In this document: positions 28,031 through 29,865 of the stretch, piece after piece
Layout: every line of letters starts with the position of its first letter
How positions within the stretch are numbered: the stretch's first letter is position 1
Assembly (NCBI RefSeq): GCF_031624635.1
Contig: NZ_JAMQOQ010000002.1
Location: 310,001 to 374,000, forward strand
From: Halogeometricum sp. S3BR5-2
GTDB lineage: Archaea; Halobacteriota; Halobacteria; Halobacteriales; Haloferacaceae
DNA: 64,000 bases
Direction: 5' to 3'
Notes under the pieces: model-generated
What the model was told of the DNA's origin: nothing
The model's input: the letters and a program-made list of their open reading frames with translations, nothing else
Databases searched by the model: none
Made by a program: the position numbers and the translations under genes

Positions 28031-28531
28031 TCAGAGCGGCGTCCCTTCGCCGTTCGCCGCGTCGGTCGCGCGGTTGATGAGGCCCGCGACGGGTTCGGTG
28101 TACTCGTAGCCCGGAATTATCCCCTGCACGTACGTCCCCTCCACGTAGTCGACGACGGCGCCGGCGTCTTCGACGCCCCGCCGCTCGTTGATGTCCGAGA
28201 ACGACGTTCTGACGACGGCCGACGTCCCCTCGCGGGTCACGTCCACGTCGAGTTCGCGCTCCTTCTTCGTCACGCCGCCCACGTCCTCGACGCGCAACTC
28301 GAACGTCTCGTACCAGCCGTCCTCGACGACGGGCGCCACTCCCCCTTCCACGACGTCGCCGAGCATCGGCACGCGGACGGTCACGTCGAACGTTATCTTC
28401 CCTTCTCTCTCTCCGACGTCGACTCGGCCGTCGAACGCCGTCGCGGTCCACTCGTAGGCAGACCCGTCTCGCTCCTCGAAGGAGTCGTGGTCGCGGAGGG
28501 CGCGCCGCGCCCTGTCGGGTAGTTCGCTCAT
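28031..28531 (-). CDS. DUF5813-like haloarchaeal protein
   Basis: 166 residues, acidic. An N-terminal helix (LPDRARRALRDHDSF) leads to a beta-rich core (YEWTATAFDGRVDVGEREGKITFDVTVRVPML...). No membrane segment. The layout matches the haloarchaea-specific DUF5813 group as far as I can recall. TATA-like gcttttgtc about 28 bp before ATG 28531. Convergent to the RAM gene. Function unknown. Confidence 0.7.
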   Translation of the reverse strand: MSELPDRARRALRDHDSFEERDGSAYEWTATAFDGRVDVGEREGKITFDVTVRVPMLGDVVEGGVAPVVEDGWYETFELRVEDVGGVTKKERELDVDVTREGTSAVVRTSFSDINERRGVEDAGAVVDYVEGTYVQGIIPGYEYTEPVAGLINRATDAANGEGTPL

Positions 28532-28634
28532 GAATCTCGGGAGGCGTTCACGGGACAAAAGCCCCTCGCGTCCGCCGTTCGACCCGTTCCCGAGAGCGGG
28601 CACGCAACCGGCGAATTTGCGAGCGTGCGGCACG

Positions 28635-28640
28635 CTTAAG
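28635..28640 (+). promoter_or_regulatory. TATA box of the candidate RNA gene
   Basis: cttaag within cacgcttaagtgg, of the kind seen before stable RNA genes in haloarchaea. Predicted start about 26 bp downstream, at 28661-28664, coincides with the first base of a perfect hairpin. Confidence 0.4.
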
Positions 28641-28660
28641 TGGTTGCCTGCCATGGTTGC

Positions 28661-28760
28661 AAGTGACGCTTCGCTTTGGAGGGCCGAAGCGTCAGCGGGG
28701 ACCAATTCAGGGCGGCAGCGTCCGTTCGGGCTGTTCCCGAACGGGCGCTACCTTTTCCCA
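28661..28760 (+). ncRNA. Candidate structured small RNA
   Basis: Two strong hairpins follow a TATA-like box. Hairpin 1: 10 perfect pairs, tgacgcttcg (28664-28673) with cgaagcgtca (28685-28694). Hairpin 2: 14 pairs with one T-G wobble, agcgtccgttcggg (28717-28730) with cccgaacgggcgct (28736-28749), 5-base loop, then cctttt (28751-28756) as a likely termination tract. A linker of 22 bases joins them. The overlapping ORF (ATG 28657) has codon use unlike the neighbouring genes, so I read this as RNA. It does not match SRP RNA, RNase P RNA or a tRNA by eye. Confidence 0.4.
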
Positions 28761-28898: not shown

Positions 28899-29084
28899 CT
28901 ACAGGTACTCTCCGAGCGTCCCGCCAACGAGGACGCCCGCGGCGAGGATGGACCCGGCGCTGGCCGCGAGGTGGACGGGAACCGAAGAGAGGACGCCCAA
29001 CACGGCGGCGCAGGCGAGACTGACTCCCATCACCGCGAGGAGGTAGTCGAAGCGCGTGGGTTCGTTGGCGGGCATCACCGACAT
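28899..29084 (-). CDS. Small two-helix membrane protein
   Basis: 61 residues from ATG 29084 (an in-frame ATG at 29075 is possible). A TATA-like cctaattac lies 24 bp upstream of 29084. Two hydrophobic segments (about 12-32 and 36-58) after a polar start (MSVMPANEPTRFDY). Function unknown. Confidence 0.6.
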   Translation of the reverse strand: MSVMPANEPTRFDYLLAVMGVSLACAAVLGVLSSVPVHLAASAGSILAAGVLVGGTLGEYL

Positions 29085-29133: not shown

Positions 29134-29865
29134 TCACTCCTCGCGGAGACGGTTCAGCGAGCGGGTTTCCAGACCGCTCCGCGCCCGCTCCTCGACTTCG
29201 GCGGCGCGGTCGAACTCCCCCAGCGCTTCCAGCGCCCGGCGTCGCTCGTCGGCGACCCACGCCGTCCGCAGGCCGAGCGAGACGGCCGCATCGAGACACC
29301 GGAGCGCCTCCTCGTGCTGGCCGCGTTCGTTCAGCAGGTAGCCGCGGTTGTACCACGCCTCGGCCAGTCGCGGGTCGCGTTCGACGGCCGCCTCGGCGTG
29401 CTCCAACGGCGCCGTGCTCTCGCCGGACTCCCACAGCGCCGCCGCGAGGTTCGTCTCCGCCGCGGCCGAGAGGCCGTCGTCGGCGTCGATGCGAAGCGCC
29501 TCGCGGTGCGAACTCGCCGCCTCGTCCCACTCGCTCAACTCGCCGTGCGCGATGCCTTTGCTCACCCACGCCTCCGCCGCCGCGGCCGACTCCTCGGGCG
29601 CGTAGAACGCCGCCCGCGCGAACGAGTCGATGGCCTGTTCGTACTGCTCGATGGCGAGGTACTCGATTCCCACTTCTATCAGCGCCGCGACGTCCACGTC
29701 GTCGGGGCGCACCTGGGACTCCTCAACGACGTCCGCGAGGACGTAGTCGTCCACGGGGTCCACGTCGGCCACCGGGCCGTCGGCGCCGAGGCCGAACCCC
29801 TCGTACGGGTCGCCGAACCCCTGTCCGTCGGAGTACCGGTGCGGGCGGTCGTTTCTAGTAGTCAT
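29134..29865 (-). CDS. Tetratricopeptide repeat protein
   Basis: 243 residues from ATG 29865. An acidic, Gly/Tyr-rich N-terminal part (about 1-60) precedes four TPR units (about 62-205): for example EYLAIEQYEQAIDSFARAA, AWVSKGIAHGELSEWDEAAS, NLAAALWESGESTAPLEHAEAAVERDPR, AWYNRGYLLNERGQHEEALRCLDAAV. A scaffold for protein interactions; partners unknown. TATA-like ggttatctc 28 bp upstream, leaderless. tRNA-Leu lies upstream on the same strand. Confidence 0.85.
   Translation of the reverse strand: MTTRNDRPHRYSDGQGFGDPYEGFGLGADGPVADVDPVDDYVLADVVEESQVRPDDVDVAALIEVGIEYLAIEQYEQAIDSFARAAFYAPEESAAAAEAWVSKGIAHGELSEWDEAASSHREALRIDADDGLSAAAETNLAAALWESGESTAPLEHAEAAVERDPRLAEAWYNRGYLLNERGQHEEALRCLDAAVSLGLRTAWVADERRRALEALGEFDRAAEVEERARSGLETRSLNRLREE

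Follow-up and report, generated by a model that had tools for sequence, protein, structure and literature searches.

Between two protein-coding genes in the window, the 64,000-nucleotide stretch of Halogeometricum sp. S3BR5-2 DNA analysed here, lies a short region that the initial annotation singled out as a candidate structured small RNA, raising the questions of whether it is a gene and, if so, what its product does. Positions 28661-28757 of the forward strand are very probably a real gene. The reading to which we lean, with a little more belief than doubt, is that it specifies an independently transcribed noncoding RNA of ~95 nt, one of two paralogues of a family found throughout the Halobacteria, which would act in trans as a post-transcriptional regulator. 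Comparison between genomes demonstrates, at the level of sequence, the promoter, the hairpin-linker-terminator anatomy, the lack of a conserved frame, the class-wide range and, within the window's family, the usual presence of two copies per genome; the regulatory role is suggested by analogy. The locus and its neighbours comprise the following elements.

28031-28531, reverse strand: flanking gene for a DUF5813 protein (PF19130, E 1e-55)
28628-28641, forward strand: promoter with BRE-like CGGCAC and TATA-like CTTAAGT, a motif shared across 154 copies
28635-28640, forward strand: CTTAAG box, present in the window
28661-28757, forward strand: predicted sRNA transcript of ~95 nt, its ends placed (+/- 3 nt) from TATA spacing and terminator
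28664-28694, forward strand: 5' hairpin 1 (arms listed as 28665-28673 and 28685-28693), with UGGAGGGC invariant and compensatory changes in diverged copies
28694-28703, forward strand: near-invariant single-stranded linker AGCGGGGACC, with changes in the two copies that have diverged most
28704-28716, forward strand: moderately conserved linker AAUUCAGGGCGGC (74-97% per position)
28717-28749, forward strand: 3' terminator-like hairpin 2 (loop of 5; one of its 14 pairs is G-U)
28753-28756, forward strand: terminator T-run TTTT, read in the window
28899-29084, reverse strand: open reading frame for a 61-aa hydrophobic protein, 3' of the sRNA
29134-29865, reverse strand: flanking gene for a TPR-repeat protein

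The anatomy described in the initial annotation is largely borne out. Both the CTTAAG box and the TTTT are where they were reported, the first stem is a perfect 10-bp helix (TGACGCTTCG/CGAAGCGTCA) closing an 11-nt loop (28674-28684, CUUUGGAGGGC), and a start at the base of this stem with a length of ~100 nt agrees with the TATA spacing of 29-30 nt and with the terminator. The second stem, said to be a perfect 14-bp helix, does have 14 pairs, but one of them is G-U. For the 126-nt stretch the folding energy is -64.9 kcal/mol, whereas its shuffles average -47.7 +/- 3.6 (z -4.73; none of 200 as low). The claim that both stems exceed chance holds for the pair, since finding both inside ~90 nt is rare, but not for the first stem taken singly across the window: Watson-Crick stems of at least 10 bp number two in the 64 kb, compared with 2.0 in shuffles, and the first stem is therefore not rare at that scale.

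The comparative evidence is stronger than these statistics of fold and stem, as the copies become conserved close to the predicted start, 29-30 nt downstream of the TATA box. Among 154 copies the core, which runs from stem 1 to the end of AGCGGGGACC, is almost invariant, unlike the flanks, and conservation falls off past the GGGCGGC stretch; because these copies were chosen partly by a core pattern, conservation of the positions it covers is overestimated. The same picture is seen in copies found by BLASTN alone, and the core is invariant among 20 diverse copies. Upstream, the 154 copies share C (94%), G (88%) and A (95%) followed by a TTTAAGT-like box placed 29-30 nt ahead of stem 1, so that the RNA has BRE/TATA elements of its own, as do haloarchaeal intergenic sRNAs. 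The 3' hairpin is retained although its sequence differs greatly from copy to copy: 148 of 151 copies have z < -2 against mononucleotide shuffles. An open reading frame (MVASDASLW...) covers the region and could be taken for a small protein gene, yet its ATG lacks conservation, and indels of 1 and 2 nt in the loop put copies out of frame with one another, making this reading barely credible. As the nucleotides before UGGAGGG number two, three or four among the copies, there is no shared reading frame and no conserved protein, in keeping with the earlier judgement that the sequence is not coding and with what is expected of haloarchaeal intergenic sRNAs.

Compensatory changes in relatives, whose absence would have spoken against the candidate, are seen in stem 1 of diverged copies. 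In the genomes G025, G104 and G304, such copies exchange U-A for C-G and C-G for U-A with the loop UGGAGGGC unchanged, and in plasmid-borne diverged copies the stem is altered on both sides around a fixed loop. Fourteen chosen sequences contain four cells with both-side changes, more than any of 500 shuffles, and two pairs with double changes, a number that 25 of 500 attained; as divergence was the basis on which the sequences were chosen, the support from covariation is modest, though positive. The two arms of stem 1 show little variation among chromosomal copies. A helix with a purely structural role would not usually be so constant, and this constancy would be compatible, too, with a protein binding to the specific sequence.

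The haloarchaeal covariance search proposed with the initial annotation was run with a model built from the 5' core, which matches 289 of the 292 sampled genomes of the class (Halobacteria); outside the order no convincing match to the model was obtained (best E 0.0048). Of 60 related genomes, 55 give a BLASTN match to the RNA, mostly with two copies in the window's family, as in the window's genome itself, and with one in other families. Five genomes in three families (f2, f9 and f11) have no copy or only chance-level scores, and two of these five are less than 80% complete. The exact core pattern occurs in at least 119 stretches of named genomes; the matches listed bear haloarchaeal titles, except for two uncultured archaeon scaffolds. 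Viral contigs and phage records contain no match to this pattern, and plasmid records contain two haloarchaeal matches and a weak one that is probably due to chance. Some genomes (G304, G025 and G104) have four or more copies, the extra ones being diverged. Such diverged copies occur at L294 (9881-9999), L295, L296, L297, L293, L292 and L127, and at L274/L248 (G082), and two of them are on plasmid pHLAC01 of Halorubrum lacusprofundi. Separated from them by ~115-155 bp, and divergently oriented, is a gene whose product is a ~325-aa protein of a virus-type family (phrog_35116), homologues of this protein being found in 130 of 242 sampled genomes; the sRNA adjoins that gene in only two of the best 30 loci, and the AlphaFold model of this plasmid neighbour is poor (pLDDT 55). 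A separate observation concerns genome G054, where three intergenic places (L189, L195 and L216) share GGGTTCTGGTCCCCGCT and the resemblance extends further between two of the three; this may be a dispersed repeat.

As the initial annotation had supposed by eye, the sequence matches no known stable RNA: in Rfam 15 no family exceeds its gathering threshold (the top score being 18 bits where 45 are required), and a literature text search for the core sequence gave no match. The family thus has no Rfam entry and no described function, yet one copy seems already to be known as an RNA seen in Haloferax volcanii. The window copy lies between the DUF5813 gene and the small open reading frame, which has no Pfam or NCBIfam match, followed by the TPR gene; the corresponding Haloferax copy has an MCP gene in place of the latter two. 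The other paralogue is located between DUF7117 and amphi-Trp/PadR genes and, in Haloferax, ~5 kb from a gene resembling that of the flap endonuclease, which we take to be fen1, with HVO_2873 as its presumed H. volcanii counterpart. At the Haloferax locus L126 the order is oadhA4, small protein, TrkA, 78-aa protein, DUF5813, sRNA and MCP. With oadhA4 being HVO_2209 (PMC8305020), the 78-aa protein HVO_2212 (PMC12850539) and sRNAhts10 HVO_2213s (PMC3956466), counting along this order assigns HVO_2213 to the DUF5813 gene and HVO_2214 to the MCP gene. The place is thus that of HVO_2213s by gene order alone, through the Haloferax locus, and the window copy is very likely the orthologue of sRNAhts10 by synteny (HVO_2209 to HVO_2214). 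Since the syntenic Haloferax copy corresponds to an RNA that has been sequenced, we strongly infer that the window sRNA is transcribed. sRNAhts10 was found by sequencing, is intergenic, was reported in 18 other haloarchaeal genomes and has mild effects when deleted (PMC3956466), perhaps because the paralogue remains. Its listed length of 161 nt (PMC3956466), against the ~95 nt predicted, counts against the explanation favoured here. It is very unlikely that the element is instead a leader or cis-regulatory part of a downstream gene: many genomes do have a same-strand PadR gene downstream in one of the two contexts, but the next genes in the window are on the opposite strand, downstream neighbours vary between copies and a terminator-like hairpin closes the RNA.

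Regulation in trans by way of the loop and linker is the reading we prefer, because haloarchaeal sRNAs already known offer an analogy. The rigid 5' hairpin would present the loop UGGAGGGC, the linker AGCGGGGACC would lie open and single-stranded, and the G-rich loop and linker together could contact mRNAs at short C-rich sites, or else a protein that binds RNA, with the 3' hairpin merely terminating and stabilising the RNA; the two copies are probably redundant. From the sequence one can tell where constraint acts but not which partners are contacted. In six genomes searched for the 10-nt complement of the linker, matching sites clearly exceed the control in only two, and none recurs in orthologous mRNAs across the six. 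The lone orthologous pair was SRP RNA; it contains the 10-mer of the sRNA itself, not the complement, and was rejected as a shared mRNA target. A 13-bp match of the linker near the sarcin-ricin loop of 23S rRNA (-22.9 kcal/mol in the window's genome; 3 of 1000 shuffles as good) was likewise set aside, since the other haloarchaea that were checked have a poorer match or none, and no conserved complementarity to 16S or 23S rRNA was found. The invariant GGAGG of the loop could alternatively mimic a Shine-Dalgarno sequence and modulate initiation by pairing with the anti-SD CCUCC of 16S rRNA, whose 3' end reads ...GGATCACCTCCT; this is improbable, as the U preceding GGAGG and the GC following it, both invariant, do not lengthen the anti-SD match and the loop-16S duplex is no better in energy than shuffles (30/60).

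The main rival to a trans-acting regulator is protein binding, whereby loop and linker would be bound by a conserved haloarchaeal RNA-binding protein that the RNA titrates or scaffolds, as decoy or RNP component, with no mRNA pairing. It is held tentatively, as a minority view: the loop UGGAGGGC is invariant despite stem changes, both stem 1 arms are nearly frozen in chromosomal copies and no complementary target is shared by the six genomes, yet there is no known protein partner. A gene for a TRAM-domain protein, a type that binds RNA, is often near the diverged copies, some of them plasmid-borne, but only some mobile copies show this linkage, and it is not seen at the chromosomal loci L031 and L126. 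A somewhat more doubtful formulation is that this near-universal haloarchaeal RNA is a stable RNP or protein decoy acting through the invariant UGGAGGGC loop, of which plasmids carry diverged versions beside a virus-type protein gene; we know of no archaeal example of such an RNA.

In the 2014 deletion study haloarchaeal sRNAs were described as poorly conserved, with only three of 27 occurring in more than 10 species (PMC3956466), whereas the near-invariant core described here is present in ~99% of the sampled genomes of the class. Two copies in many genomes could explain the small effect of deleting one, and a defined gene pair with two short invariant motifs offers an entry to the function of a core archaeal sRNA. 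The family merits an Rfam entry.

Of the systems compared, sRNAhts10 (HVO_2213s; Heyer 2012, Jaschinski 2014, PMC3956466) shares with the window copy its intergenic position and, by synteny, its genomic place; it differs in its listed 161 nt, and neither the class-wide range, the invariant core nor the second copy was found described in its literature. The H. volcanii sRNA132 (PMC6560208) is alike in being intergenic, with two stems, a single-stranded linker and its own promoter, but is confined to Haloferax, is 138 nt long, has a pyrimidine-rich linker and belongs to the phosphate regulon; by location and distribution it is a different RNA. The archaeal SRP RNA (RF01857) has the 10-mer AGCGGGGACC in common with the sRNA in two sampled genomes but differs in gene, size and fold, and the shared 10-mer is taken as chance because only two of six genomes show it. 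RNAs of the CsrB/RsmZ type titrate a protein through a GGA-containing motif in hairpin loops, and to our knowledge no CsrA exists in archaea. A possible working likeness to them would lie only in the GGA-containing loop motif, which is carried here by one loop and there by many.
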